Below are positions 7,247 to 23,940 of a DNA stretch of 61,784 nucleotides, one piece after another. The notes beneath the pieces were generated by a model that had not been told where the DNA came from, did not search any database, and worked only from the letters and a program-made list of their open reading frames with translations. Position 1 is the stretch's first letter. Every line of letters begins with the position of its first letter. Made by a program: the position numbers and the translations under genes. Source of the stretch: an uncultured Clostridia bacterium (GTDB lineage Bacteria > Bacillota > Clostridia > Oscillospirales > Acutalibacteraceae); assembly GCA_947630285.1 (NCBI GenBank), contig CANRHD010000013.1, forward strand, positions 1 through 61,784, given 5' to 3'.

Positions 7247-7389
7247 TTTAAATCTCCGTTTTATAAGAAAATACAATTATACTATTATAAAGTATATTTT
7301 ATCACATACAGATAGTATTTTACAAGAGTAATTTAACCATATTTTGTGGTTTTTTGGCATATTTTTATTAAAAGTACGCAATAAAGAAC

Positions 7390-7415
7390 AAATCCCCCGT
7401 TTTCACAGGGGATTT
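7390..7415 (-). terminator. Terminator of the SCP2/transketolase operon
   Basis: AAATCCCC (7390-7397) pairs with GGGGATTT (7408-7415). On the minus strand it is followed by a T-rich run (TTTGTTCTTT). It lies 20 bp past the stop codon at 7435 and isolates the operon from rlmB. Confidence 0.75.
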
Positions 7416-7434
7416 AGATTTAATTTATTGCTCT

Positions 7435-8244
7435 TTATTTTGCCAAATCACCGACGGCAAGCATAAATCCGCCGAGCTGTCCTCCGAATTCGGGAGCGCC
7501 GTCCATAATAAGATGGCCTTTCTTTACGGATTCAAGCATATCGTCCGTGCCAAGTAGAATACCCAGAGCAGAGTCGAACGAGTCAAAGCGAAGAGTAAAG
7601 AACGGCATCGCCCGTTTGTACTCCCCTCTGCCTGCTCTCGACTTGCCTGCCTTAATCCTGATAAATGCGGAAACCTCCGGGTGGTCGTTTACCGCAAGCG
7701 CATATACACGGTCGGGTGATTTTAAGGTCCAGTCGTGTATCTCCTCATGCCCCATTTTGTTAAGCTGGCTTATACCGCTTGTAAGCAAATAGAACATACA
7801 CTTAACCATAAGCTGTTTATCTTCTTCTTTTTCGGGCGGCTTTGTCGCAGAAAGCACACTCGACATTTTAAGAAGCGACATCAAAAACGCCTTGAACGCA
7901 CCGAAATGCTTTGCAACTCCCCTCATTTTCGGAAGCGTTGCCGGTGAAATTTTGCCCTTAAAAAACGAGTTCATCGCCTCTATTGATTTAAACTCAAGCT
8001 CAACATGAGGGTTGGGGTCAACCTTGTTTAAATGAATAAGCCAGTCGTCCGAGCCGTTCACAACAAAGTGCATGCCGGTTTTTCCGCCTTCCGCCTCGGG
8101 GTCAAGAGCGCTGACCTGAATTACGGCGTGAACATTTTTATACTGCTTTTTAATGGATTCAACATCTTGTGCAAGCACTTTTATCAAGGGCAATGCCGCA
8201 TTGAAGAATATTTTGTTGGCATAAAGCTCTTCTTTTGTATGCAT
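7435..8244 (-). CDS. SCP2-like protein (last gene of the transketolase operon)
   Basis: This soluble protein of about 269 residues has no signal peptide. Two segments look like SCP2 (sterol-carrier-protein-2) lipid-binding folds: around 55-130 (VELEFKSIEAMNSFFKGKISP, then a hydrophobic run through FGAFKAFLMSLLKM) and around 190-269 (FFTLRFDSFDSALGILLG, then GGQLGGFMLAVGDL). This pattern, a strand, then a partially hydrophobic helix with an FFKGK/ILLG turn and a final helix, is what SCP2 domains show, but the match is by eye only. I prefer the ATG at 8244; a TTG 36 bases upstream (8280) is possible. The architecture resembles the first gene of the same operon (11549-12310). Family membership is tentative and the ligand is unknown. 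Confidence 0.6.
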   Translation of the reverse strand: MHTKEELYANKIFFNAALPLIKVLAQDVESIKKQYKNVHAVIQVSALDPEAEGGKTGMHFVVNGSDDWLIHLNKVDPNPHVELEFKSIEAMNSFFKGKISPATLPKMRGVAKHFGAFKAFLMSLLKMSSVLSATKPPEKEEDKQLMVKCMFYLLTSGISQLNKMGHEEIHDWTLKSPDRVYALAVNDHPEVSAFIRIKAGKSRAGRGEYKRAMPFFTLRFDSFDSALGILLGTDDMLESVKKGHLIMDGAPEFGGQLGGFMLAVGDLAK

Positions 8245-8298
8245 TTTATCAACTCTCTTTCCGATATATAATTCAGGCAATTTTTTGCCGGTAACGGC

Positions 8299-8321
8299 AG
8301 GCGGTATTCCGTTTACCGCCT
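8299..8321 (-). other. Intercistronic hairpin between the transketolase and SCP2-like genes
   Basis: An eight-pair perfect inverted repeat (8299-8306 with 8314-8321) lies between the stop at 8332 and the SCP2-like gene. On the minus strand it is not followed by a T-run, so it is more likely an mRNA-stability or processing element than a terminator. Confidence 0.45.
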
Positions 8322-8331
8322 AAACTGCGCC

Positions 8332-9342
8332 TTATACATCGTCGTCCCAGTTGTCGTCCTCTTCAAAGTCCGCTTTCATTACTTCACGAACGGCGGATAT
8401 AATTCCGTTGGCGTCTATGCCGACTGCCGCCATAATGTCCTCATGCAGTCCTATAGGTGCGAATTCGTCCTGATGGCCGAGCATCTTAAACGCACAGCCC
8501 TTGCCTGCCTGAGCCATAACCTCCGCCACCGCAGAGCCGAGGCCGCCCACAACGGAATGGTCCTCAACGGTTATAATTCTTCTTGTATCCATTACCGCCT
8601 TAATGACGGCTTCCCTGTCGATGGGTTTAATGGTGTGCATATTAAGCACCCTTACCTTTAAGCCGTCGGCGCTGTCGAGGAACTTCGCCGCTTCACGGGC
8701 CTGAAAAACACAGCTTCCGCAGGCTATTACGGTTATATCCGTACCCGGGTGAACCTCCACAGCCTTGCCTACCTCAAAGCCGTAATCCTCGTTATCATAA
8801 AGCACACGGTCAAAGCCCCTGTTTATGCGTATGTAATAGGGGCCGTAATTATTGTACGCCGCTTTTATGGCGTTTGCCGTTTCATAGCCGTCAGCCGGAC
8901 AGATTACCGTAAGGTTCGGCATTGAACGGGCAACGGCAAGATCAACTATGGCATGGTGAGTAGAGCCGGCCTGACCGAAAGAGGTGCCGGAATGTGTTGC
9001 GATAATTTTTGCATTTACATTCTGATAGCAAATATCCGTGTGGAGCTGGTCCGCCGCACGCAGTGAAGCAAAAACCGAAAATGTAGAGGCAAAGGGAACA
9101 AGACCTGCCCTCGCCATACCTGCGGCTACGCCTATCATATTCTGCTCGGCAATGCCCACATTAAATACCCTTTCGGGGCAGGCGTTTGTAAAGTCCTGAA
9201 GCTTTGTTGAAGTTGCAAGGTCTGCTGTGACCGCAACTATTTCCTTATGTTCCTTGGCAAGCTCTGCGAGCGTTTTGCCGTAAATTTCCGAAGTTGAGAG
9301 CTCCGGGGTTTCAATTACATTATAAACAAATCCGCCGGCCAT
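8332..9342 (-). CDS. Transketolase-like C-terminal subunit (pyrimidine-binding plus C-terminal domain)
   Basis: This 336-residue protein is the second half of a split transketolase. It holds the pyrimidine-binding domain with the cofactor-activating glutamate (Glu66 in NVGIAEQNM) and the segment HSGTSFGQAGSTHHAIVDLAVARSMPNLTVICPADG, then the transketolase C-terminal domain (from about 190). The gene starts in a TAATG overlap with the N-terminal subunit gene, and its AAGGAG site lies inside that gene, which implies translational coupling and a 1:1 complex. Together they should form a thiamine-diphosphate enzyme that moves a two-carbon ketol unit. Sugar phosphates are the default substrates; the SCP2-like and aminotransferase neighbours leave the real substrate open. 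The last 12 residues are strongly acidic (EEDDNWDDDV). Confidence 0.92.
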   Translation of the reverse strand: MAGGFVYNVIETPELSTSEIYGKTLAELAKEHKEIVAVTADLATSTKLQDFTNACPERVFNVGIAEQNMIGVAAGMARAGLVPFASTFSVFASLRAADQLHTDICYQNVNAKIIATHSGTSFGQAGSTHHAIVDLAVARSMPNLTVICPADGYETANAIKAAYNNYGPYYIRINRGFDRVLYDNEDYGFEVGKAVEVHPGTDITVIACGSCVFQAREAAKFLDSADGLKVRVLNMHTIKPIDREAVIKAVMDTRRIITVEDHSVVGGLGSAVAEVMAQAGKGCAFKMLGHQDEFAPIGLHEDIMAAVGIDANGIISAVREVMKADFEEDDNWDDDV

Positions 9343-10220
9343 TATTCAAACTCCTTTCCGCAGCGTTCAATGCGTTCTGCGCTGTATTTGTCCAGGTCAT
9401 TTGAGGCAATTTCCGCCATTGCGTCGTCTATTGCGCCGTAATGCCATTTATAATTGCCCTCTGTAAGCTTAATGCCTACGCCCTTTACCGTATCGGCAAC
9501 GATAACCGTCGGCTTTTCGGTACATTCGTGGGCGGCGTCGATAGCCCTGCAAAGTTCAACAATGTTATTGCCGTCAATAACTATGGTGTTAAAGCCGAAG
9601 GCGGTAAACTTATCCGCAAGCGGTTCAAGCTTCATAACATCTTCGGTGTTTCCGTCTATCATACAATGGTTTCTGTCAACGATGGTTATACATTTTGTCA
9701 AATTGTAGTGGTGAATGGTCATAAGGCCTTCCCAGTTGGAGCCCTCGTCAAGCTCGCCGTCGCCTGTGACTACATATGTATAATAGTCCTTGCCGAGTAC
9801 CTTTGCCGCTATCGCCGTGCCTGCCGCAATGGGGATACCGTGACCGAGCGAGCCCGTTGAAGCGTCAACCCCGACAACCTTGTTGGAGTCGAGATGAATA
9901 CCCATTTTAGAGCCCGAAAGGTTAAAGGTTTTCAACATTTCGGGGTCGTTAAAGCCCTTGTCGCAAAGCACGGGAGCATACGCAATTCCGGCGTGTCCCT
10001 TGCTGAGAATAAATCTGTCCCTGTCCTCCCAGCCGGGGTCGTCAACCTTAATGTTGAGATACCTGTAATAGAGTACTGTAAGAATGTCCATAACGCTCAT
10101 ACCGCCGCCGATATGTCCGCTTCCTGCCCAAACGGTTGTCTGAAGGCAGAGGTGGCGCAGCTCGTTGGCCTTGTTTTCAAGAGCAAGCCATTCTTCCTTT
10201 GTCAAAGGTGCTTTTTTCAT
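9342..10220 (-). CDS. Transketolase-like N-terminal subunit (ThDP pyrophosphate-binding)
   Basis: This 292-residue protein is the pyrophosphate-binding half of a split transketolase. It carries SGHIGGGMS (34-42), SKGHA (73-77), SLGHG (124-128) and the ThDP motif, which starts with GDGELDEGSNWE at 153 and ends with VDRN at 181-184. The usual NN at the end of this motif is RN here. A strong AGGAGG lies 11 bases before the ATG. It follows the aminotransferase gene by 57 bp and overlaps the C-terminal subunit by one base. Split transketolases of this form are common in Clostridia; most are annotated for the pentose phosphate pathway, but known relatives act on other ketols, for example DesAB of Clostridium scindens on cortisol. 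Confidence 0.93.
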   Translation of the reverse strand: MKKAPLTKEEWLALENKANELRHLCLQTTVWAGSGHIGGGMSVMDILTVLYYRYLNIKVDDPGWEDRDRFILSKGHAGIAYAPVLCDKGFNDPEMLKTFNLSGSKMGIHLDSNKVVGVDASTGSLGHGIPIAAGTAIAAKVLGKDYYTYVVTGDGELDEGSNWEGLMTIHHYNLTKCITIVDRNHCMIDGNTEDVMKLEPLADKFTAFGFNTIVIDGNNIVELCRAIDAAHECTEKPTVIVADTVKGVGIKLTEGNYKWHYGAIDDAMAEIASNDLDKYSAERIERCGKEFE

Positions 10221-10277
10221 GCTGAGATTTTCCTCCTTTTTTTGTTGCTTTTTTGTGAGGTGTGCAAATAATTTATA

Positions 10278-11534
10278 TTACGAATGTCTTTTGCGAACTA
10301 CATTAAAGGCGTCCTCGGCAATATCAACAGAGGTCTTAATATCCTCCTGAGTGAGCGAGGCGTTGATAAAGTGGTTGTGGTGCGAGGCAAGGAAAAGACC
10401 TCTTGAAACACATTCCGCAATCCACTCCTGATGAAGCATAAGGCTGTCGTCGTTTGCAATCCTGAGATAAAACAGCGCAGGCTCGCCCGAAACGACAAGG
10501 TCAAAGCCGTTGTTGGCGGCGGCCGCCTTTAAGCCGTCGGTAAGCTGTGTGCCCATTTTGCGGAAAAGCGTGGGAGTGTCAAGCTTTTTCATTTTGTCGA
10601 TACAGGCAATGCAGGCGGCAAACGGTACTGCGCTCATCCAATAAGAGCCCGTATAGGTCATACCAGAAACGGTGGATTTCATATGCTCGCCGCCGCAGAG
10701 AGCCGACATATTGTAGCCGTTTGCAAGCGCCTTGCAGAAGCAGATGAGATCCGCCTTGATGCCGTAATAGTGGTCGGAGCCTTTAAGGTCAAGACGGAAG
10801 CCCGTGCGAACATCGTCGAATATAAGCACAACGCCGTGCTCGTCGCACCATTTGCGTACAGCCGTCCAGTACTCCTTTGTGGCGACCTCGTTATCCTTAA
10901 AATTACCGTGGTCATACGGCTGGGCAATAAGCCCTGCAATATCACCGTCGTTTTCCTCATAAAGCCTGTCAAGCGCAGGAATGTCAAACCAGGGCGCTAC
11001 AAGGTTGTGGCAGACATCTTCGGGAAGAATACCGGGGTAGTCGATTTTCTGCGCCCACTGGAAATCCCCGTGGTAATAGCCTTTAAGGAAAATAATTTTT
11101 CTCTTGTGAGTATGCGCCCTTGCAGACATTACCGCAAGGGTTGTGGTGTCCGAACCGTTTTTGCAGAAGAAAGCCCAGTCTGCGGAGGCTACGGTATCGA
11201 CAAGGTTTTCGGCGCACTCAACCATTACGGTTGACGGCGCAGTTGTGCAGTTGCCCTTTTCGAGCTGAGCCTTTGCCGCGGCGTCAACATCGGGGTCGTT
11301 GTAGCCGAGTACATTGGGCCCGTAGGCGCACATATAGTCGATGTATTTGTTCCCGTCGGCGTCCCAAAAATATGAACCCTGCGCCTTTACTGAATAGTAC
11401 GGCCATTTGTTTATGGGTATCCATAAGCCCTCTGACGGGCCCAGGTGTCCGTAAATGCCGGCAGGTATTACCTTTAAGGCCCTTTCAAAATACTCACGGC
11501 CCTTTTCATGACTGTATTCGGGATATTTACTCAT
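10278..11534 (-). CDS. Class III (glutamate-1-semialdehyde-aminomutase-like) PLP aminotransferase, operon copy
   Basis: This 418-residue PLP enzyme has the class III fold. The phosphate-binding turn is CKNGSDTT (124-131), the ring-stacking region is YYHGD (153-157), Asp240 in LIFDDVRTGFR should bind the pyridine nitrogen, and Lys268 in CFCKALANG should form the Schiff base. It is closest in look to glutamate-1-semialdehyde aminomutases and the related sugar or omega-amino-acid transaminases; no haem genes are nearby. It begins 14 bp after the first SCP2-like gene with a GAGGTAAC site. It probably adds or removes an amino group on an aldehyde or ketone that is a substrate or product of the transketolase pair (inference). 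Confidence 0.88.
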   Translation of the reverse strand: MSKYPEYSHEKGREYFERALKVIPAGIYGHLGPSEGLWIPINKWPYYSVKAQGSYFWDADGNKYIDYMCAYGPNVLGYNDPDVDAAAKAQLEKGNCTTAPSTVMVECAENLVDTVASADWAFFCKNGSDTTTLAVMSARAHTHKRKIIFLKGYYHGDFQWAQKIDYPGILPEDVCHNLVAPWFDIPALDRLYEENDGDIAGLIAQPYDHGNFKDNEVATKEYWTAVRKWCDEHGVVLIFDDVRTGFRLDLKGSDHYYGIKADLICFCKALANGYNMSALCGGEHMKSTVSGMTYTGSYWMSAVPFAACIACIDKMKKLDTPTLFRKMGTQLTDGLKAAAANNGFDLVVSGEPALFYLRIANDDSLMLHQEWIAECVSRGLFLASHHNHFINASLTQEDIKTSVDIAEDAFNVVRKRHS

Positions 11535-11548
11535 CTTCTGTTACCTCC

Positions 11549-12310
11549 TCAAGCTAAATAAAGAGCAACTCTGTCGAGAAGTCTGTTCATATTATCTATC
11601 ATAGAAGCCATACCGTGTATTTCAACCGTGCCTTTGCAAAGCTCCTCAAGAGCGTTTACCTTGCCGTTGAAAAGGTCGGAGGCAAGCTTATAATCCGCAA
11701 ACGACATTATGGCCCTCGGGTTTTCGGGAGCCTTTTTAACCGTTCTCAAATGGTGGTTGTTTGCGCTTATCGTGGCGGTATCACAGCCCTTTATGCCGAA
11801 TGAAATATCGCCGTCAACTATGTACGAAGCGCTGTGCCTGCCTATTTCGTCGTGATTTGCAATCTGCGAAAGCGCAACGGCTATGGTGTAAAAGGTAAGT
11901 CTGGTAGAGAGGACAAAAAATTCCTCGTCCTTCATTGCCTCCTCGGTGGGCCGCATAAGCTCGGTAAGCCTGTCGGTAAGGGCGGTAAAGGTTTTGAGCA
12001 AAAAATTGATTTTTGAAAGCCCTATTGTGGGTACGGGCGTTACCGTGCCGTCGATAATCCTGTTAAACTTTTCGCACGAGGAAACAGGGATTTTTATATC
12101 GTAGTTTTTCAGGCCCTCCTCAAGCACACAGCCCTGAGCGGAAAACTTAAAGGTCGCAACGGGGCCGTCCTTAACCTCAAAAGCAAGATTTACGGGCTTT
12201 TTAAGTCCGGAAATGATTTCCTTTGCCTTGCCGTCAAGCTCGCACAAATTCTCAAGCGTACCGAGAACGGCAAACATATTTATGTATGCCATGGTTTTTG
12301 CGTCTGTCAA
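11549..12310 (-). CDS. SCP2-like protein (first gene of the transketolase operon), TTG start
   Basis: This soluble 253-residue protein has two SCP2-like parts: one around 40-125 and a clearer one around 165-253 (AIMSFADYKLASDLFNGKVNALEELCKGTVEIHG, then a C-terminal amphipathic helix). SCP2 domains bind lipids, sterols or acyl chains in a hydrophobic tunnel. The start is TTG at 12310: the site GGGGGA sits seven bases before it, while the first ATG (12292) has none. A TTGACT/TATCAT promoter lies just upstream. It shares the double-domain plan with the last gene of the operon, so the two may be paralogues or subunits. The fold is inferred by eye and the function is unknown. Confidence 0.58.
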   Translation of the reverse strand: MTDAKTMAYINMFAVLGTLENLCELDGKAKEIISGLKKPVNLAFEVKDGPVATFKFSAQGCVLEEGLKNYDIKIPVSSCEKFNRIIDGTVTPVPTIGLSKINFLLKTFTALTDRLTELMRPTEEAMKDEEFFVLSTRLTFYTIAVALSQIANHDEIGRHSASYIVDGDISFGIKGCDTATISANNHHLRTVKKAPENPRAIMSFADYKLASDLFNGKVNALEELCKGTVEIHGMASMIDNMNRLLDRVALYLA

Positions 12311-12344: not shown

Positions 12345-12373
12345 ATGATACCAAAATTTGCATATAAAGTCAA
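12345..12373 (-). promoter_or_regulatory. Promoter of the SCP2/aminotransferase/transketolase operon
   Basis: Read on the minus strand, TTGACT (12368-12373) and TATCAT (12345-12350) are separated by 17 bp and sit about 35 bp before the TTG start. The same hexamer pair (TTGACT, TATCAT, 17 bp) drives the transporter gene that starts at 21902. Confidence 0.65.
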
Positions 12374-12526: not shown

Positions 12527-13252
12527 ATGAATAAATGCGCTATAGTTACCGGAGCTTCGAGGGGAATAGGCAGAGCCGTTGCAAAAAGGCTTGCCCGTGA
12601 CGGCTTCAGCCTTGCGCTTATTTACAAAAACAGCGCCGACAAGGCCGCAGAGCTCGCAGAAGAGCTTGAATGTGACGCAAAAATTTATAAATGCGATATA
12701 TCCGAGTCAAACAGCGTCAATAATACGGTAGAAAAAATAATTGAGGATTTTTCGGGCGTTTTTTTGCTTGTCAACAACGCCGGTATCGCACAGCAAAAGC
12801 TTTTTACCGATATTACCGACAGGGACTGGCAGGAGATGCTCTCCGTAAACCTTTCGGGCGCATTTTATTTTTCAAGAGCCGTTTTGCCGTATATGATACA
12901 CAATAAAAGCGGAAAAATAATAAATATCGCCTCCATGTGGGGAGAGACGGGAGGCTCCTGCGAGGTGCATTACTCTGCGGCAAAGGCAGGCATAATCGGA
13001 ATGACAAAGGCGCTTGCAAAGGAAACGGGGCTTTCGGGGATAACGGTAAACGCCGTCTCCCCCGGTGCGGTAAAAACCGATATGCTGTCCTCTTTCAGCG
13101 AACAGGAGCTTGACCTGCTTCAAAACGATATTCCGCTCAACCGCCTTGCAACGGCGGAGGATATTGCCAATGCGGTTGCGTTTTTGGCGAGCAGCGAGGC
13201 GGATTATATAACCGGACAGGTGCTTTCGGTGAACGGCGGAATTGTAATTTAA
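12527..13252 (+). CDS. Short-chain dehydrogenase/reductase (FabG/YmfI-like)
   Basis: This 241-residue classical SDR has the NAD(P)-binding motif TGASRGIG (8-15), NNAG (about 86-89), the catalytic Ser in INIASMWG and the YSAAK pair (Tyr/Lys). The end DYITGQVLSVNGGI is typical of FabG-like enzymes. Its length and solitary position also fit the EF-P 5-aminopentanone reductase YmfI, which is of this size in Firmicutes; I cannot separate YmfI from a FabG paralogue by eye. It is divergent from the transketolase operon, and whether it works with it is unknown. An Arg right after TGAS suggests NADPH. Confidence 0.85.
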   Translation: MNKCAIVTGASRGIGRAVAKRLARDGFSLALIYKNSADKAAELAEELECDAKIYKCDISESNSVNNTVEKIIEDFSGVFLLVNNAGIAQQKLFTDITDRDWQEMLSVNLSGAFYFSRAVLPYMIHNKSGKIINIASMWGETGGSCEVHYSAAKAGIIGMTKALAKETGLSGITVNAVSPGAVKTDMLSSFSEQELDLLQNDIPLNRLATAEDIANAVAFLASSEADYITGQVLSVNGGIVI

Positions 13253-15487: not shown

Positions 15488-16585
15488 TTATTTCTTATTA
15501 ACAAGCTCAAGCGTTCCGGGATCTCTGAGCTTTACAACTATCTGAAGAACCCATTTTGCATCGACTATTGTTACCTTGCCGTCGTTGTCAAGGTCGGCGG
15601 CCTTTGCCTGCGCCTCGGTAAAGTTAACAAGATTTACAACATTCTGCAATATTATCTTTGCGTCGGAAATTGTAATCGGGATTTCCTCAAACTTGTTTTT
15701 CGCTTCGTTTGCATAGCTTTCTGCCGTAGAACCTTTAAAGCCGTGAACGGTTGTTTCGGAGAACACTGCGTTTTCGCCTATGTTGCATTTTCTGTTCAAA
15801 ATGTATATATCGGTCAGGTTGAGACATTCGTCAAACGCCCAGGAATCAATTTTCTCTACGCTTACCGGTACTTCTACGGTTGTTAATCCGTCGCAGCCGT
15901 AGAAGGTGTCTTCTTTTATAGCCGTAATGCTTTCGGGGATAGTTATACCCGTAATGCCGTCGCAATCCCAGAATGCGGCTTCATATATATCGGTAACCGT
16001 GCTCGGAATTTCATATTCGCCCTTTTTTCCCTCGGGACATCTTAAAAGAACTGTTTTATCCTTATTGAACAAAACTCCGTCCTGCGAAGAATACACTTCG
16101 TTGCCCTCTTCTACTTCAATAGCCTCAAGGTTGTAAAGGGGATCAAACATAAGATAAGGATTAATATTATCTACCGTTGCCGGTATGATTACTTTCTTAA
16201 TGCCGTCACGGTTGTGAAAATCATTATCGGTGAAAAAGAAATCGCCCGGTGTAGCGTCTCCTGCCGTTGCGTCGGCTTCGGTAGCGTCGGCTTCGGTAGC
16301 ATCGGCTTCGGTAGCGTCGCTCTCTGTGACATCAAGTTCAAATTTTTCTTTAAAAGTCATGTAGCTGACAGCCGTTACCGTGTAACCGTCTATTTCTGAA
16401 GGTATTACTACGGTTTCCTCATTGCCGTGGTAAAAGAATATTCCGGCTGTGCCGTCTTCAAATACAAGATATTCAAACTTTGAGCTGTTTTCCGCAAATG
16501 CGGCTATGCCTGCAAGCGGAAGAGAGGTTATTATCATTATTAATGATAACAGCAATGACATGCGCTTTTTTGAAATTAACTTCAT
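15488..16585 (-). CDS. Secreted BspA-type leucine-rich-repeat protein with dockerin-like C terminus
   Basis: This 365-residue exported protein starts with a signal peptide (KKRMSLLLSLIMIITSLPLAGIAAFAE). The middle has BspA/LRR_5-type repeats (TAIKEDTFYGCDGLTTVEVPVSVEKIDSWAFDECLNLTDIYI). An ATEAD tandem run lies at about 95-115. The last 50 residues resemble a type I dockerin: ISDAKIILQNVVNL, then DLDNDGKVTIVDAKWVLQ, whose second loop has the Ca-binding D-x-D-x-D pattern while the first loop is incomplete. The start is chosen at the third codon of the longest frame because GGAG then lies seven bases upstream. It may dock on a cohesin scaffold or mediate adhesion; no cohesin is in the window. 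A structured RNA and a strong promoter precede it. Confidence 0.85.
   Translation of the reverse strand: MKLISKKRMSLLLSLIMIITSLPLAGIAAFAENSSKFEYLVFEDGTAGIFFYHGNEETVVIPSEIDGYTVTAVSYMTFKEKFELDVTESDATEADATEADATEADATAGDATPGDFFFTDNDFHNRDGIKKVIIPATVDNINPYLMFDPLYNLEAIEVEEGNEVYSSQDGVLFNKDKTVLLRCPEGKKGEYEIPSTVTDIYEAAFWDCDGITGITIPESITAIKEDTFYGCDGLTTVEVPVSVEKIDSWAFDECLNLTDIYILNRKCNIGENAVFSETTVHGFKGSTAESYANEAKNKFEEIPITISDAKIILQNVVNLVNFTEAQAKAADLDNDGKVTIVDAKWVLQIVVKLRDPGTLELVNKK
16271..16315 (-). repeat. 15-bp tandem repeat encoding ATEAD units
   Basis: Three nearly exact 15-bp units (16271-16285, 16286-16300, 16301-16315, one base different in the third) are flanked by decayed units on both sides. They encode the run ATEADATEADATEAD, an acidic linker before the LRR part. 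In-frame slippage here would change linker length without a frameshift. Confidence 0.8.
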
Positions 16586-16620
16586 AATCATTCTCCTTTG
16601 TGTTGATATACGATGGTGTT

Positions 16621-17047: not shown

Positions 17048-17118
17048 TTATGGTGAACAGCAATTCACTTTATGTAAATTGCACTCGTTTAATAATAAAA
17101 AGTTCGGAGGTAATTCAA

Positions 17119-18600
17119 ATGGACACAAGATTTGCTATTTCGGAATATCATGACGCGAAAGCAATAAACCGTGAGCTTGACGAGCTTATCAAGAAACCGA
17201 TTTATTCAATCAAGCCTGATGTTCTTAAGAAGTACGAGGAAGAGTATTACGGAAAGAAATGTGCAAAGTCAAAGGAAATGATTGATGAGGCAAAGGCAAT
17301 CATTCCCGGCGGCGTTCAGCACAACCTTGCATTTAACTATCCTTTTCCGCTTGTATTTACAAAGGCAGACGGCGCTTATCTCTACGATGTAGACGGAAAT
17401 AAGTACTTTGACTTCCTTCAGGCAGGCGGCCCCACTGTTCTCGGCTCAAACCCGAAAGCAGTCCGTGAGCAGGTTATCGACCTTCTTAACACTTGCGGTC
17501 CCTCAACAGGTCTTTTCCATGAGTTTGAATATAAACTTGCCAAAAAGATTGCAGACTCTGTTGAAACGGTTGATATGTTCCGTATGCAGGGTTCCGGTAC
17601 AGAGGCTTGTATGACGGCAGTCCGTGTTGCCCGTCTTGCAACCAAGAAAAAGAATATAATTAAAATGGGCGGCGCTTACCACGGCTGGTCGGATCAGCTC
17701 GGTTACGGCATCCGTGTTCCCGGGTCAAAATTCACACAGGCAAGCGGCGTTCCGCTTTTCCTCTTTAAACATACGCAGGAGTTCTTCCCCGGCGATCTTG
17801 AGGACCTTGAGAGAAAGCTTTGGCTCAACCAGTTCAGGGGCGGCACAGCGGCGGTATTCATCGAACCCGTCGGTCCCGAAAGCGGTACAACTCCCGTTGA
17901 CTATGACTTCAACAAGGGCGTTGAAAGACTTTGCCGCAAATACGGTGCGCTTCTCGTATTTGACGAGGTTGTTACAGGCTTCCGTATCGGTATGGCCGGC
18001 GCACAGGGCTTCTTCGGCGTATCCCCCGACCTCACGGTATTCGGCAAGGTTATCGCAGGCGGCTATCCCGGCGCAGGCGGTTTAGGCGGCAAGAAAGAGT
18101 ATATGAAGTACCTCGGTGCAGGTCTTGACGCTACCGGCGAAAAGATTAAGAAAGCCTTTACGGGCGGCACTATGACAGCCAATCCGCTTTCATGCTGTGC
18201 AGGTTACTTCACTCTTGAAGAAATCGACAAGCAGAACGCCTGCCAGAAAGCAGGTCAGATGGGCGACAGACTTACAGCAGGTCTTAAAGAGCTTATCAAT
18301 AAGCACGGTCTTCCCTTTGTTGCATGGAACGAAGGTTCTATCTGCCACCTTGAGACAGTCGGCACAATGCACTATTCTATCAACTGGAAAAAGCCGTGGA
18401 CAATTCCGGGCGTTCTCGACGCAACATCTGTCCGCAAGAAAGAAATGCAGTACATGGGCGCTGCCTATATGGCAGAGGGTCTTGTTACACTTGCAGGTTC
18501 CCGTCTTTACACTTCGGCTGCTTATACGCCTAAGATGATCGACCAGGCTCTCGCCTGCTTCGACAAGGTATTTGAAAATGTAGCCGTTAAGGCTGACTGA
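17119..18600 (+). CDS. Class III PLP aminotransferase (GSAM-like), long form, highly expressed
   Basis: This 493-residue PLP enzyme is related to glutamate-1-semialdehyde aminomutase but about 60 residues longer, with an N-terminal helical extension (1-50). Motifs are GSGTEA (158-163), YHGW (187-190), FDEVVTGFR (281-289) and the Schiff-base lysine Lys310 in VFGKVIAGG. A second extension lies between about 420 and 450. The start is set at 17119 by CGGAGGT eight bases upstream and by the promoter, which rules out 17050. Codon use (GTT, CTT, CGT, AAG, GGT) is more biased than in neighbouring genes, suggesting high expression. A terminator follows, then a tandem class II aldolase. The two may act in sequence on an amino-aldehyde or sugar (inference). 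Confidence 0.88.
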   Translation: MDTRFAISEYHDAKAINRELDELIKKPIYSIKPDVLKKYEEEYYGKKCAKSKEMIDEAKAIIPGGVQHNLAFNYPFPLVFTKADGAYLYDVDGNKYFDFLQAGGPTVLGSNPKAVREQVIDLLNTCGPSTGLFHEFEYKLAKKIADSVETVDMFRMQGSGTEACMTAVRVARLATKKKNIIKMGGAYHGWSDQLGYGIRVPGSKFTQASGVPLFLFKHTQEFFPGDLEDLERKLWLNQFRGGTAAVFIEPVGPESGTTPVDYDFNKGVERLCRKYGALLVFDEVVTGFRIGMAGAQGFFGVSPDLTVFGKVIAGGYPGAGGLGGKKEYMKYLGAGLDATGEKIKKAFTGGTMTANPLSCCAGYFTLEEIDKQNACQKAGQMGDRLTAGLKELINKHGLPFVAWNEGSICHLETVGTMHYSINWKKPWTIPGVLDATSVRKKEMQYMGAAYMAEGLVTLAGSRLYTSAAYTPKMIDQALACFDKVFENVAVKAD

Positions 18601-18620
18601 TTTTACGGCAAAACGCTTAT

Positions 18621-18655
18621 TCGGGGCGGGCGGATTACCGCCTGTCCCGATTTTT
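18621..18655 (+). terminator. Strong hairpin terminator between aminotransferase and aldolase genes
   Basis: A 13-pair stem (18621-18633 with 18638-18650; two G.T pairs) is followed by five T residues. It should limit, but not abolish, read-through into the aldolase gene only 15 bp further on, for which I see no separate promoter, giving a high/low expression ratio. Confidence 0.75.
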
Positions 18656-18669
18656 AATGAGGTGATATA

Positions 18670-19893
18670 ATGGATATTTTACAGGCAAAAGAACTTGTTA
18701 TAAAAGCCGGTAAGGAATTGCTTGACGCAGGTATTATTGTGCGTACCTGGGGCAATATTTCGTGCCGTGTTTCGGACACCCAGTTTGTAATTACCCCATC
18801 AGGCAGAGCCTATGAAAACCTTACTCCCGATGAAATAGTACTTGTTAATATTGAGGACTGTTCTTACGAGGGTGATATTAAGCCCTCATCGGAAAAGGGT
18901 ATTCACGCCGCCGCATATAAGCTTCGTCCGGAGGCTAATTTCGTTATTCACACGCATCAGAAGCAGGCGTCTGTAATCGGCGCTCTCGGCTTTGACATCA
19001 ACAATGTTGCCGAGAAGAGTGCGGCAATAGTCGGCAATGATGTTCCGCTCGCCTCATACGGACTTCCCGGAACGGGCAAGCTCCGTGAGGGAGTTATTGC
19101 GGCTATCAAGAGGACGGATTCAAAGGCCGTTCTTATGGCACACCACGGTGCGCTCTGCATGGGCAAGGACTATGCGGAGGCCTACAGCGTTGCAAGTGAG
19201 CTTGAAGCTATATGCGAAAACTGTTTAAAGAAAAAGTACAACGAGGTCACCGGCGCAATAGTTGACACGGTTGATTCCATAGCGAGTTATATAGCCGAAA
19301 AATTCGCCGACGCCAAAGCGGCGAACGCCGCCAAGTTCGATGTATGCAAATCGGAAAGGGACGGAAGCGTATTTAACATTACTTCCGTTGACGGCGACGG
19401 CAAAATCACAAGAATTAACATTAAGACGGGCGAGCTTGTCGCAGGCGACGATTACCCCGACTCCGCAGAGCTTCACAGAACGATTTACAAAAAGCGTGAC
19501 GATGTAAACTTTATAGTTCACAACACTTCGCCCGAGGCTATGGCAATGTCGGTAAAGGGCAAGACCATGAAGCCGCTTCTTGACGACTTTGCACAGCTGT
19601 GCGGCGCGACCGTAAGGCACGCCGTGTTTAATCCCAACAGCACGCTCAAATCCGCCAAAAAGGTTGCCAAAGCCCTCAAGGGCAGGAATGCCGTTATCCT
19701 TGACAACAACGGCGTCCTCTGCGTAGCCGGAAGCGAATATGACGCAACTGCCGTTGAGCATGTAATGGAAAAGGGCTGTAAGACCCAGATAGGCGCTGAC
19801 CTTTTCGGTTCGGCAAAGCCCATCAATCCCATTGAAACAAGGCTTATGAGGTTTATATATCTCAAGAAATACTCAAAGCAGGCAAGCAAATAA
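18670..19893 (+). CDS. Tandem class II aldolase/adducin-domain protein, second domain degenerate
   Basis: This 407-residue protein has two class II aldolase/adducin domains. Domain 1 (1 to about 190) has a complete metal site of the fuculose-1-phosphate aldolase type: Glu75 in SSEKGIH, His94 and His96 in IHTHQ, and His158/159 in AHHG. Domain 2 (about 225-400) keeps Glu267 and His284, but the second histidine of HxH is Thr286 and the HHG motif is DNNG. It is therefore probably inactive and structural or regulatory. Such enzymes cleave or epimerise phosphorylated sugars. The usual family length is about 210-230 residues, so this is a duplication or fusion. GAGGTGAT precedes the ATG. It is probably read through from the aminotransferase promoter. 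Confidence 0.87.
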   Translation: MDILQAKELVIKAGKELLDAGIIVRTWGNISCRVSDTQFVITPSGRAYENLTPDEIVLVNIEDCSYEGDIKPSSEKGIHAAAYKLRPEANFVIHTHQKQASVIGALGFDINNVAEKSAAIVGNDVPLASYGLPGTGKLREGVIAAIKRTDSKAVLMAHHGALCMGKDYAEAYSVASELEAICENCLKKKYNEVTGAIVDTVDSIASYIAEKFADAKAANAAKFDVCKSERDGSVFNITSVDGDGKITRINIKTGELVAGDDYPDSAELHRTIYKKRDDVNFIVHNTSPEAMAMSVKGKTMKPLLDDFAQLCGATVRHAVFNPNSTLKSAKKVAKALKGRNAVILDNNGVLCVAGSEYDATAVEHVMEKGCKTQIGADLFGSAKPINPIETRLMRFIYLKKYSKQASK

Positions 19894-20459: not shown

Positions 20460-21902
20460 TTATTTTTCCGCCTTGGCGGCTCTTCTCTTTTGAAGCTCCG
20501 CAGAAATCTTCTGCTTCTTTTCGCCGACTATATCGTATTTAAGCATCGGTATTACCGAGAGCAACGCAAGTATTCCGGGCAGAGCGGTGTATGCAAAGAA
20601 GATTATATCCTTTGTGCCGTTTGTAAAGTTACCCGACTCAAGCGCTCCGTAATAGCCCGACGCCGAAACAAACACAAGTCCCACAGCCGTACCCAGAGCG
20701 AGGCAAACCTTAATAGTAAGGGTGAGTATCGAATACGCCGCACCCTCCATTCTTTTGCCCGTTTCGTATTCATAGTAGTCAACCGCATCTGCGGTCATTA
20801 TCATGGGCATAAGGGTAACTGCGCCGAACTGAAGACCTATGAGGAACAGCGAAGCGTAGAATAAAACTGTAAGCACGGTGTTTTCGGGATTTTGGAACCA
20901 AAAATGACCTATTATGAAAGATAAAACAGACGCCGCAAAGCCGTATACGGAAAGCAGTATATAGGCCTTTTTCTCATCGAGCTTTTTAATAAGCATCGGG
21001 CAGAGCGCCATGGAAATCATCGAGCCTACCGCTGTAACAATGCCCAAAACCGCAACAAGATTTTGCGAACCGAGTATAACCGTTGCGGCCTGAACCTGTA
21101 TGCCCATTGCCATCTGCCTGCCGAAGCCCATGAAATAAGAAACAATTACAAGCATAAGCGGTTTGTTGTCCTTTAACGCCCTTACCATATCGCCGGCGGT
21201 GGTCTTTTCGTTTGACTCCACCTTGACCCTCTCTTTGTTTAAAAGCGGTATGAGCGCAAAGAGTACACAGCCGAAAACTGCCGTAAGTATCGCCGTACCG
21301 AGAAATTCCGAAGAAATCATAGGCGTATCGGTCTGACCCTTTTCAACAATAACCTTTGAGCCGCCCGGTATGATAAGACACACAATGGGTACTATGACAA
21401 CGCAGGCGGAGAAGCCTATCTGCTTAAATGTGTTTGAAATGGAAACAACATTCGTTCTCTCGGTGGGGTCGGGCGTAAGAGCCGAGGCTATGCCCTGCGA
21501 GGGAACATCGCCCATAGTCATGGCAATGCTCCATATAAGATATGTAATAAATATCCACACATAAAGCCCCACGCCCTTAAACGGCACCTTTAAGAACACA
21601 ACCGCCGTAAAAACAAGCAGCGGAGCGAGTGAATAAATAATCATGGGCTTGAATTTGCCGAGCTTTGATTTTGAGCGGTCAAGCATATTGCCTACCACAG
21701 GGTCGGCAACGGCGGAAACTATCTTCGCAATAAGTATTAATATTGCCACAACGCTTACATTTGCGCCCAAAATTGAGCCGTCAAATTCCGCCTGATATGA
21801 ATTTAGCAGGCCGACTATCGCCTGAAAGCCGAAAAGGCCGAGGGAATAAGCGGCTATCTCCTTAAAATTCATATACTTTTTTGACTGTATTTTTTCGCTC
21901 AT
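20460..21902 (-). CDS. GPH-family (MelB-like) sugar:cation symporter 1
   Basis: This 480-residue transporter has twelve predicted helices and belongs to the glycoside-pentoside-hexuronide:cation symporter family. It shows the loop motif DPVVGNMLDRSKSKLGKFKP (about 66-85) and the family signature TADAVDYYEYETGKRMEG (about 385). The start is placed at 21902, where GGGGGT lies nine bases upstream; an in-frame ATG 30 bases earlier lacks a site. The C-terminal tail is Lys/Arg-rich. Its promoter contains a palindrome (21943-21956), so it is probably regulated. Substrates in this family are sugars or glucuronides; which one is unknown. A second family member is encoded divergently at 22441. Confidence 0.9.
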   Translation of the reverse strand: MSEKIQSKKYMNFKEIAAYSLGLFGFQAIVGLLNSYQAEFDGSILGANVSVVAILILIAKIVSAVADPVVGNMLDRSKSKLGKFKPMIIYSLAPLLVFTAVVFLKVPFKGVGLYVWIFITYLIWSIAMTMGDVPSQGIASALTPDPTERTNVVSISNTFKQIGFSACVVIVPIVCLIIPGGSKVIVEKGQTDTPMISSEFLGTAILTAVFGCVLFALIPLLNKERVKVESNEKTTAGDMVRALKDNKPLMLVIVSYFMGFGRQMAMGIQVQAATVILGSQNLVAVLGIVTAVGSMISMALCPMLIKKLDEKKAYILLSVYGFAASVLSFIIGHFWFQNPENTVLTVLFYASLFLIGLQFGAVTLMPMIMTADAVDYYEYETGKRMEGAAYSILTLTIKVCLALGTAVGLVFVSASGYYGALESGNFTNGTKDIIFFAYTALPGILALLSVIPMLKYDIVGEKKQKISAELQKRRAAKAEK

Positions 21903-21936
21903 AAGAGAACCCCCTAAAAAGTATTTTAACATTTTA

Positions 21937-22440: not shown

Positions 22441-23940
22441 ATGAGCGAAAGCGTAAAAGAAGCGGCAAAAACAGAGGAAAAGGAAAATCTAATCAACAGG
22501 CACAAAAACAGAAGGTATTTAAGACCAAAGGAGATACTCGCATATATCTGCGTATCCTACGGCTCAAAAAACCTGTCGGAGTTTGTATCGGGCAACCAGC
22601 AGTTTTTTATGCTCAATTTCCTGAGGCTAAAGGGTTCGACCTACGGCACTCTTTCGCTTATCGCAAATATTTACGACGCCGTGGACGACTCGATAAGCGG
22701 AGTTATAGTTGACCGCACCCGTACCCGTTGGGGGCATCTGCGCCCGTATCTTGTGGTAACCCTGCCGCTTATCGCCCTGAGTACGCTTATGATGTTCTCC
22801 GCTCCCGAGCTTACGGACGCAAAGAGGACGGTCTATGCCCTGTTTTCAATAATCTTATACGGGCTTTCGATGTCGTATTACAACTGCTGGAGCATAATGC
22901 TTTATAACATTACTCCGAATGTAAACGAGCGCAACAACTTAATCACGACCAAGGAATTTTGCGATCTGTTTGTCGTGCTTCCGAGCGTGGTTAATATCGC
23001 CGTCTCGGTGCTCCCGAAAATCAACGAAAACATAACCATGCAGTCCATTTACACGGGCTGTGCGCTTATCTGCGTTTTGCTGTGCGTTTTGGCGTCCGTT
23101 TTCGGCTTCCGCAATATGCGTGAGAGAGTGCCGCTCGTTTCCCGTGAGGAAATGAACAACACACCGATACGGAAATCCCTGAAGGAGCTTTTTAAAAACA
23201 AACCGATGTTTGTTGTAATCATAGCCTCTTTCGTAAACAATATAAAATCGGTCGGCGGAGCTTCGGAAAGCTTTTTCTGGCTTAACAATGTGGGTTCTTT
23301 GCTTTACGGCACATTTTCGGGTCTTGTAACGGGTGCGCCTAACTATTTTATGACGCCGCTCGCACCTAAAATAATAAAGAAATTCGGGGCAAGGAACACC
23401 GCCGTTATATGCGGACTTTTCGGCGGTTTTGCATACCTTGCGCTGTTTTTGATAGGCTATGCGCCCTTTGGGGAGCGAAAAATTCTGAATGTCGCCTACC
23501 TCTACATAATGCTTATGATTTGCGGTCTGCCGAACTGCGTAATGCGTGTGTGCAACGCCGTTATTCAGGGTGATGTGTACGATTATATGGAGTGGAAATC
23601 CGGTATGCGTAACGAGGCGCTTTTGTCCACCGTCAGCGGCTGGTTCGGCAAGCTCGGCACCTCGCTTATGGGCTTGCTTTCGGGCTGGTGCTTTACCTGG
23701 ATAGGCTACGAGGCGGCGTATGACAAATTCGGAAACCTTGTACCCATTTCCGATAAATCCGTTCTCAACGGCATTTTTGCCATTTTCGCCCTTGCCCCGT
23801 CGATAGCCCGTTTCGGCTACGGAATTTCACATATCTTTTTCAGCGTTCACGGCAAATTTAAAGAACAGATCACAAGTGACCTTGAGCAAAGGCGTGCCCG
23901 GAGGATTTTGGAGGAGGAAAGCTCCGAAGATAATAATTAA
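22441..23940 (+). CDS. GPH-family (MelB-like) sugar:cation symporter 2
   Basis: This 499-residue membrane protein has twelve helices and GPH-family features: DAVDDSISGVIVDRTRTRWGHLRPY (about 80-104) and a second-half equivalent QGDVYDYMEWKSGMRNEA (about 376-393). It has a long polar N-terminal extension (1-30) and a charged C-terminal tail ending in acidic residues. It is only distantly similar to symporter 1, so this is not a recent duplication. The ribosome site (AAGGGG) is unusually close to the ATG, about 3 bases; GGACGGAAG a little upstream may help. It lies after the phosphotransferase remnant. Substrate unknown. Confidence 0.88.
   Translation: MSESVKEAAKTEEKENLINRHKNRRYLRPKEILAYICVSYGSKNLSEFVSGNQQFFMLNFLRLKGSTYGTLSLIANIYDAVDDSISGVIVDRTRTRWGHLRPYLVVTLPLIALSTLMMFSAPELTDAKRTVYALFSIILYGLSMSYYNCWSIMLYNITPNVNERNNLITTKEFCDLFVVLPSVVNIAVSVLPKINENITMQSIYTGCALICVLLCVLASVFGFRNMRERVPLVSREEMNNTPIRKSLKELFKNKPMFVVIIASFVNNIKSVGGASESFFWLNNVGSLLYGTFSGLVTGAPNYFMTPLAPKIIKKFGARNTAVICGLFGGFAYLALFLIGYAPFGERKILNVAYLYIMLMICGLPNCVMRVCNAVIQGDVYDYMEWKSGMRNEALLSTVSGWFGKLGTSLMGLLSGWCFTWIGYEAAYDKFGNLVPISDKSVLNGIFAIFALAPSIARFGYGISHIFFSVHGKFKEQITSDLEQRRARRILEEESSEDNN

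Follow-up and report, generated by a model that had tools for sequence, protein, structure and literature searches.

In the sphingosine-1-phosphate lyase route sphingoid bases are taken apart by one pyridoxal-phosphate (PLP) lyase, which acts on the phosphate, and the route ends in a fatty aldehyde. No enzymatic pathway for the breakdown of such bases in anaerobic Clostridia is known to us; one study (PMC11914097) is said to concern phytosphingosine and Flavonifractor plautii. Two other described systems come closer to the locus considered here. The DesAB steroid-17,20-desmolase operon of Clostridium scindens carries a split transketolase for a hydrophobic substrate, and the proposal for DesAB is that it takes from cortisol the same two-carbon unit that a ketose donor gives up (PMC3735941; this and the other publications cited are drawn on through the portions of their text available to us). 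FumI of Sphingopyxis sp. MTA144 (PDB 6hbs), an aminopentol aminotransferase, acts on hydrolysed fumonisin B1, with pyruvate accepting the 2-amino group (PMC2933618). A split transketolase and a FumI-type aminotransferase occur together in a five-gene operon found in a stretch of 61,784 nucleotides (hereafter the window) from an uncultured Clostridia bacterium of the Acutalibacteraceae (assembly GCA_947630285.1, contig CANRHD010000013.1). Its genes encode, in order, an SCP2-like protein (SCP2-B), the class III aminotransferase, the N- and C-terminal chains of the transketolase (TK-N and TK-C) and a second SCP2-like protein (SCP2-A). The operon is likely to act on a non-sugar, hydrophobic amino-hydroxy substrate, and we give an even chance to the more specific proposal that it serves anaerobic gut Clostridia as a catabolic, possibly also detoxifying, route for sphingoid bases (long-chain 2-amino-1,3-diols, sphinganine and sphingosine among them).

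A preliminary description of this DNA had proposed the five genes as a single operon, and all five open reading frames are indeed found consecutively on the minus strand at the places given there. In a sample of 147 related genomes, the window's own included, SCP2-A was matched (E up to 0.001) in 52. Seventeen of 20 regions fetched around such matches hold all five genes (in L043 SCP2-B is clipped by the start of the stretch), and L037, L046 and L048 hold only TK-N, TK-C and SCP2-A, L046 ending at a contig edge. When the aminotransferase profile was run against named genomes and the best 80 of 558 relatives were taken, all five genes were recovered in order at 63 of the 80 loci, bearing out the earlier claim that they belong together, with another five interrupted by a contig end inside the operon. 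SCP2-B adjoins the aminotransferase in 79 of these 80 loci, which were found through the aminotransferase. The other 12 loci have SCP2-B and the aminotransferase with no transketolase adjoining, and in three of those 12 genomes SCP2-A lies elsewhere with TK-N and TK-C beside it. Hence the operon comprises two separable units, SCP2-B with the aminotransferase and TK-N and TK-C with SCP2-A, each enzyme having its own SCP2 protein. Beyond close relatives, a sample of 398 genomes from the phylum yielded the aminotransferase (profile E up to 1e-70) in nine, the window's own included. Two loci from one genus (L186, L187) and L190 hold all five genes, and L189, which ends at a contig edge, holds four of the five; the aminotransferases of these five-gene and contig-cut loci are 45-56% identical to that of the window. 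L188 and L191 have SCP2-B and the aminotransferase with no operon-type transketolase within the stretch, and L192 and L193 are the weakest matches (E about 5e-72). All five genes, together with the second aminotransferase AT2 discussed below, are also present in Eubacterium coprostanoligenes ATCC 51222 (L110). The operon is real, conserved and specialised.

The best match of the aminotransferase among PDB sequences is FumI (E 8.4e-89), followed by glutamate-semialdehyde aminomutase (E 2.6e-42), and the family profile recovers FumI alone from the PDB at E up to 1e-60 (1.3e-106). The window protein and FumI are 39% identical and have in common a DDVR motif and the region around the PLP lysine; this lysine (K268, assigned by family resemblance) is invariant in 14 of 14 aminotransferases. 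In a tree of 21 rows, eight operon-type aminotransferases, six homologues from proteobacterial plasmids and FumI form a clade with 100/100 support, a value that refers to the FumI clade as a whole and not to the branching order within it, with HemL, GabT, AT2, the L192 protein and a haloarchaeal row falling outside. FumI therefore shares a clade with the operon aminotransferase but comes from another phylum, and the available part of its published account mentions no transketolase or SCP2 partner, unlike what is seen here. By analogy with FumI, this affinity points to a sphingoid-type 2-amino-3-hydroxy chain as the substrate class. Of 32 plasmid records that matched FumI-like aminotransferases, seven were examined for gene context. 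On a Novosphingobium plasmid the order is class II aldolase, aminotransferase, carbohydrate kinase and TetR, with an aldehyde dehydrogenase nearby. The plasmids of Agrobacterium sp. T29 (L169) and Shinella sp. HZN7 (L170) each have, one gene away from the aminotransferase, a gene with the annotation alpha-ketoacid dehydrogenase alpha/beta, which possibly represents another route pairing an aminotransferase with a thiamine diphosphate (ThDP) lyase; we count these three of the seven contexts in favour of a sphingoid substrate. The latter two plasmids also carry a substrate-binding protein and a class IV aminotransferase. The neighbours of two Variovorax copies are TetR, FabG and ABC transport genes, those of the Pseudosulfitobacter copy TetR and ABC transport genes, and those of the haloarchaeal gene, outside the clade, ABC genes and one whose annotation names a ceramidase N-terminal domain.

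The split transketolase provides the second line of evidence. The alignment of 74 sequences comprised 72 operon-type copies, the window genome's canonical split enzyme and TktA of E. coli. Two outliers among the operon-type copies (L046, L048) were set apart. Of the remaining 70 copies 64 derive from the 80 aminotransferase-profile loci; loci with a too-short chain were dropped, and some genomes may have entered twice through two loci. On the acceptor side (E. coli numbering), R91 is replaced by N and D469 by A in all 70, and R358 by A (56), S (13) or T (1). The outliers read N/T/A (L046) and N/R/S (L048) at positions 91/358/469, so that L048 keeps R358, and all three residues are likewise changed in the distant L186, L187, L189 and L190 (N at 91, G or A at 358, A at 469). 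The residues for catalysis and the ketol donor (H26, H66, H100, G114, E411 and H473) and those on the phosphate side (S385, H461 and R520) are kept in 70 of 70. R/R/D is found at the three replaced positions in E. coli TktA, in the separate canonical split transketolase of the same genome, which has A at 385, and in a full-length transketolase within L191. Alignments show the equivalents of R91, R358 and D469 to be kept in the human and Carboxydothermus enzymes as well; the split transketolase of Carboxydothermus hydrogenoformans (PDB 6yaj/6yak) is the closest solved relative of both operon chains and differs from them in this respect. In E. coli transketolase D469 forms a salt bridge with R91, and D469T makes room for aromatic aldehydes, shifting the enzyme from phosphorylated to non-polar acceptors (PMC5073344). 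The same D469T has been called propanal-accepting, and H100L was introduced so that pyruvate can serve as donor (PMC10787763); changes at R358, S385, D469 and R520 favour aromatic aldehydes, and the donor is bound by H66, H100, G114 and H473 (PMC7661550). Since R91, R358 and D469 are replaced while the donor residues are kept, the natural changes resemble those engineered to steer transketolase towards non-polar aldehydes, with the ketol side intact. Use of pyruvate in the manner of DXS was considered and rejected, because H100 is kept in 70 of 70 copies where DXS has Phe (PMC7661550), which favours a hydroxylated donor.

For the two outer proteins the preliminary description had suggested SCP2-like folds, and structure prediction with comparison to the PDB confirms them. 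At the sequence level the window SCP2-B matches Pfam SCP2 (PF02036) at E 0.0049 and 17.6 bits, under the 21.3-bit cut-off, and a Pfam search of the window SCP2-A gave no match, SCP2 included; at E up to 1 the family is matched by 13 of 25 SCP2-B-type relatives and one of 11 of the SCP2-A type. AlphaFold2 models built from 25 (SCP2-B) and 11 (SCP2-A) aligned sequences reached mean pLDDT values of 93.2 and 90.7, respectively. In Foldseek searches of the PDB ranks 1-46 for SCP2-B (E 5e-5 to 8e-3) and ranks 1-31 for SCP2-A (E 2e-4 to 5e-3) are all SCP2 proteins or alkylsulfatase/YjcS structures, which we take to contain an SCP2-type domain. An SCP2 fold is thus confidently predicted for both of these putative lipid carriers. 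The strand-helix pattern occurs twice in each model, so each protein looks like two SCP2-type halves, though when the profiles of the halves were compared, SCP2-B gave a weak positive signal and SCP2-A none. SCP2-A and SCP2-B are themselves distantly homologous. In the structure search their fold is like that of UbiJ, the SCP2-type domain of the SdsA1 alkylsulfatase and the MFE-2 domain, from which they differ in carrying two SCP2-like halves and in having no Pfam match above the cut-off.

From these components a pathway can be proposed. SCP2-B would present the lipid to the FumI-type aminotransferase, which would transfer the C2 amino group to a keto acid and leave HOCH2-C(=O)-CH(OH)-R. This 1,3-dihydroxy-2-ketone would be the lipid counterpart of a ketose, and SCP2-A would present it to the split transketolase. 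Because HOCH2-CO-CHOH-R is the donor group of transketolases, the enzyme could cut between C2 and C3, releasing a fatty aldehyde R-CHO and passing the C2 ketol unit to an acceptor or setting it free; on the available account, this unit is the same as the one that DesAB would remove from cortisol. The end, a fatty aldehyde from a sphingoid base, would be that of the sphingosine-1-phosphate lyase route, reached here by deamination and then ThDP-dependent cleavage. The order of the enzymes, the FumI-type aminotransferase, the replaced acceptor residues and the presence of one SCP2 protein per enzyme make sphingoid bases a better fit than any other class that we can name. An aldehyde dehydrogenase gene directly 3' of SCP2-A in L046 also counts in favour, as does the fact that two genes of a second module track SCP2-A among relatives.

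This second module consists of AT2, an aldolase (ALD2) and an FGGY-family kinase. AT2 (E up to 1e-150) is found in 49 of 52 relatives with SCP2-A versus 2 of 95 without, and the kinase (E up to 1e-130) in 50 of 52 versus 2 of 95; SCP2-A, AT2 and the kinase occur together in 47 relatives. Kinship among relatives inflates the p-values of such co-occurrence, and the genus-level counts (16/16 and 15/16) are the fairer measure. In the window some 5 kb separate AT2 and ALD2 from the operon, and in L063 and L064 the distance is 3-4 kb; in L047/L087, from one genome, they are divergent and directly beside it. In a set of 23 AT2 loci (20 fetched, the window, L047 and L064, some ended by contig edges), ALD2 is present at 18, the kinase at 13 and the kinase's TetR gene at 11. 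L146, L147 and L148 carry an AT2 of 57-59% identity with no ALD2 there and a different TetR. In one genome (G059; L149, L150) AT2 is present twice, with neither ALD2 nor the kinase beside the second copy. In an alignment of 16 ALD2 homologues (the window's own included, two short ones left out), the FucA residues N29, G44, S71, S72, E73, H92, H94 and H155 are kept in 16 of 16 and T43 is replaced by S. Of the residues on the aldehyde side, Y113 is present in one of 16, and F131 and Y209 in none. We take the FucA roles to be the Zn triad, E73 and the phosphate-binding residues on the one hand and Y113, F131 and Y209 for the aldehyde on the other. As the catalytic and phosphate residues are kept and those of the aldehyde side are not, ALD2 is expected to act on a ketose-1-phosphate-like substrate with a different tail. 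The kinase is XylB-like, below the cut-off. The match to its copy in the window's genome (G000:C23:24713-26323) contains a single in-frame TAA, so that the gene may be broken, unless this is an end effect. Two GPH/MFS_2 symporters adjoining ALD2 could import the substrate; related genes (cluster C13) lie near AT2 at four of the 23 loci, the window included, and DesD of C. scindens is likewise called a Na+/melibiose-type transporter (PMC3735941).

TetR genes follow the operon in L040, L041, L186 and L187, and one also stands beside the kinase. The kinase-side TetR is homologous over its length (28-36%) with the post-operon TetR of L186/L187, and the latter resembles those of L040/L041 at 39-41%. 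A palindrome near GTGAGCNNNNGCTCAC gives nine sites with at most one mismatch in 21 AT2 loci, all nine within 300 bp of the AT2 start (L149, L151, L152, L154, L157, L161 and L047), mostly in the divergent regions between AT2 and TetR, and is a candidate TetR operator. It occurs in front of SCP2-B only in L047/L087 and, with two mismatches, in L131. A scan of 13 genomes for an operator common to the operon and AT2 promoters gave none that was convincing except in G078, whose operon and AT2 promoters share a single intergenic stretch. Beyond the 147 relatives the association of AT2 with the operon is weaker: at E up to 1e-100 it is present in four of six further operon genomes, including E. coprostanoligenes. 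Among eight genomes of the phylum sample it is present in G287, G543 and G317 and was not found in, among others, G376, G504 and G243. Of the 12 genomes whose loci have only SCP2-B and the aminotransferase, G149 alone has AT2; the transketolase unit is present in G149 and also, with no AT2, in G150 and G152. The second module is thus a frequent companion of the operon, not a fixed part of it. For 4-hydroxylated bases such as phytosphingosine, it might form a parallel branch in which AT2, the kinase and ALD2 deaminate the base, phosphorylate C1 and cleave the product, giving a fatty aldehyde and dihydroxyacetone phosphate (DHAP). The ketose-1-phosphates used by FucA-type aldolases are 3R,4R, and oxidation of phytosphingosine at C2 would presumably give the 3R,4R configuration. 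On account of this match we tentatively suggest, while regarding it as doubtful, an anaerobic sphingoid route of two branches under one TetR type: a lipid transketolase for sphinganine-type bases, and for phytosphingosine a (3R,4R) ketose-like lipid handled by the FGGY kinase and then the FucA-type aldolase, the SCP2 proteins passing lipids between enzymes.

Several observations weigh against sphingoid catabolism. The known substrate of FumI is a 1-deoxy sphingoid, so the 1-hydroxyl of the proposed substrate is an extrapolation. We assign the 3R configuration to the ketone that natural D-erythro sphinganine would yield, and 3S to canonical transketolase donors; H26 is unchanged, and this stereochemistry counts against a simple version of transketolase cleavage. 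The retained S385, H461 and R520 would allow a phosphorylated partner, such as the acceptor of the C2 unit. The ceramidase family is found in 12 of 52 relatives with SCP2-A versus 15 of 95 without (p 0.28), the matches being mostly weak and long only in G078, and the aldehyde dehydrogenase of the L046 type in 5 of 52 versus 17 of 95 (p 0.23); neither being enriched, and the dehydrogenase being contiguous only in L046, ceramidase was dropped as an upstream marker and the dehydrogenase as a general downstream one. (In L156, from G046, some 1 kb of other sequence separates AT2 from an aldehyde dehydrogenase upstream of it, which was not counted.) AT2 at E up to 1e-100 was not found in the distant operon genomes of L126 and L132, nor in G316 and G462, both of which have all five genes. 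The 12 loci with SCP2-B and the aminotransferase only also speak against the proposal, as does the failure to find SCP2-A in nine of those 12 genomes, whose completeness is not stated. In L188 (3-11826, in a 6.4 Mb genome), SCP2-B and the aminotransferase lie among GH1, GH2, GH106, SDR and amino-acid permease genes, and the glycoside hydrolase neighbours might point to another, e.g. glycosylated, substrate. Finally, both the chemistry and the direction of the pathway are read from the genes.

The same data bear on other explanations. If the enzymes handled a soluble amino-alditol or amino sugar and its ketose, with the SCP2 proteins structural or regulatory, then the companion module with its XylB-like kinase and FucA-type aldolase of intact phosphate site, the adjoining GPH symporters and the kept S385, H461 and R520 would all find a place. 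We consider this unlikely, as acceptor contacts are lost with R91, R358 and D469, and the two SCP2 proteins, one per enzyme, and the FumI affinity also argue otherwise. Run in the other direction, the pathway could be biosynthetic, the transketolase adding a C2 ketol unit onto a fatty aldehyde and the product then being aminated by the aminotransferase, so that a sphingoid-type amino lipid would arise with no need for serine palmitoyltransferase. In principle the two reactions can run backwards, the replaced residues would equally admit a non-polar aldehyde, and the lack of ceramidase enrichment is in keeping with it. Such synthesis is nonetheless quite improbable given that Pfam detects no acyltransferase, acyl carrier protein or headgroup gene among the five, that the TetR genes (L040, L041, L186, L187 and beside the FGGY kinase), the kinase and the DHAP-type aldolase look catabolic, and that the distribution is patchy, as seen in the phylum sample.

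There is only a slim chance that, once an amine precursor has been transaminated, the operon removes the side chain of a steroid or other hydrophobic ketol, as DesAB is proposed to do with cortisol. Sterols can be bound by SCP2 proteins, and E. coprostanoligenes carries the operon; steroid amines, on the other hand, are rare, and an open-chain amino polyol is the substrate of the enzyme that the aminotransferase resembles. DesAB, with its split transketolase for a ketol side chain, is the nearest precedent, as the preliminary description had held, but it was there called an established transketolase-type enzyme, where the 2013 paper says hypothesised (PMC3735941). In the available portion of that paper desABCD includes a 20alpha-hydroxysteroid dehydrogenase and a putative transporter and no aminotransferase or SCP2 protein, the two operons being compared by description only; among the window's five genes there is conversely no hydroxysteroid dehydrogenase (Pfam) and no such transporter. 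Equally small is the likelihood of detoxification alone, in which deamination would disarm antibacterial sphingoid bases and cleavage would be secondary: the 12 two-gene loci and the nine genomes among them with no SCP2-A found suit this, and the transketolase and SCP2-A adjoining in the 63 five-gene loci do not. An ordinary split transketolase of the pentose phosphate pathway with chance neighbours, for which the identity of the enzyme families could be cited, is hardly credible in view of the conserved gene order, the three acceptor-side residues replaced throughout and the separate canonical enzyme in the same genome, and was rejected. A hydrophobic substrate, which the preliminary description had favoured, accordingly stands as the likeliest reading, and a non-sugar role of the transketolase is supported; that description was upheld only in part as an interpretation, since it contained neither the FumI affinity, the loss of acceptor residues and the reaction sequence nor the second module (17050-19893, with the FGGY kinase elsewhere in the genome).

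The features of the window are collected in the table. The gaps of 14 bp between SCP2-B and the aminotransferase, 57 bp between the latter and TK-N and -1 between TK-N and TK-C (one base common to the TK-N stop and TK-C start) agree with those given before; that between TK-C and SCP2-A, put at 52-88 bp, is in fact 51 bp with the TTG start or 87 bp with the ATG start of SCP2-A. One promoter-like site and one terminator-like hairpin flank the operon, as had been noted. The region has 16 promoter-like sites, compared with 7.1 +/- 2.4 in shuffles, and 6 terminator-like ones, compared with 7.1 +/- 3.0, so that these two candidates are credible by their position and stem length and not by the number of sites. 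Pfam recognises Aminotran_3 in the aminotransferase, Transketolase_N in TK-N and Transket_pyr with Transketolase_C in TK-C. On one flank is an rRNA methylase (7276-6500), unrelated by name; on the other a divergent SDR (12527-13252) scores above the NCBIfam cut-off for YmfI (elongation-factor-P 5-aminopentanone reductase) and probably has no relation to the operon. A BspA-type leucine-rich-repeat protein with a weak dockerin match is encoded at 15488-16591. In other genomes a PIG-L family de-N-acetylase lies directly 3' of the operon (L035:10002-10748) or about 1.5 kb downstream (L190:12489-13262), too few cases for it to be accepted as a companion.

Table. Operon, second module and putative control sites in the window
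Feature	Coordinates	Strand	Evidence
SCP2-B, SCP2-like lipid-carrier-like protein, first gene	11549..12310	-	AlphaFold2 model, Foldseek, weak Pfam SCP2 among members
Class III aminotransferase, FumI (aminopentol aminotransferase) clade	10278..11534	-	PDB 6hbs match, identity, tree
TK-N, transketolase N-terminal chain, E. coli R91 replaced by N	9342..10220	-	Pfam Transketolase_N, residue alignment
TK-C, transketolase C-terminal chain, E. coli R358 replaced by S and D469 by A	8332..9342	-	Pfam, residue alignment
SCP2-A, second SCP2-like protein, 3' of transketolase	7435..8244	-	AlphaFold2 model, Foldseek
Promoter-like site of operon	12345..12373	-	TTGACT-17-TATCAT, 10/12, TG before second hexamer
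Terminator-like hairpin 3' of operon	7389..7416	-	12-pair stem
AT2, second class III aminotransferase, glutamate-semialdehyde-aminomutase-like	17050..18600	+	Co-occurrence with SCP2-A
ALD2, FucA-type class II aldolase with second, degenerate aldolase-like half	18670..19893	+	FucA residue alignment
GPH/MFS_2 symporter adjoining ALD2, possible importer (speculative)	20460..21932	-	Family match
Second GPH/MFS_2 symporter (speculative)	22441..23940	+	Family match

No paper on this gene set or pathway was found among titles and abstract beginnings in the open-licence literature, in line with the earlier statement that no described pathway is known to have it. Every enzyme of the operon belongs to a known family; the pathway and a lipid transketolase activity would be new. 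The hypothesis is directly testable, because the culture-collection strain E. coprostanoligenes ATCC 51222 carries the five genes and AT2. Sphingoid bases from the diet, the host and Bacteroides are bioactive in the gut. If the proposal is true, conversion of an amino-diol lipid into a mimic of a ketose would have brought enzymes of sugar metabolism (transketolase, FucA-type aldolase and FGGY kinase) into lipid chemistry. It would also account for the SCP2-fold proteins in these bacteria, and the genes would provide markers for sphingolipid turnover in metagenomes.

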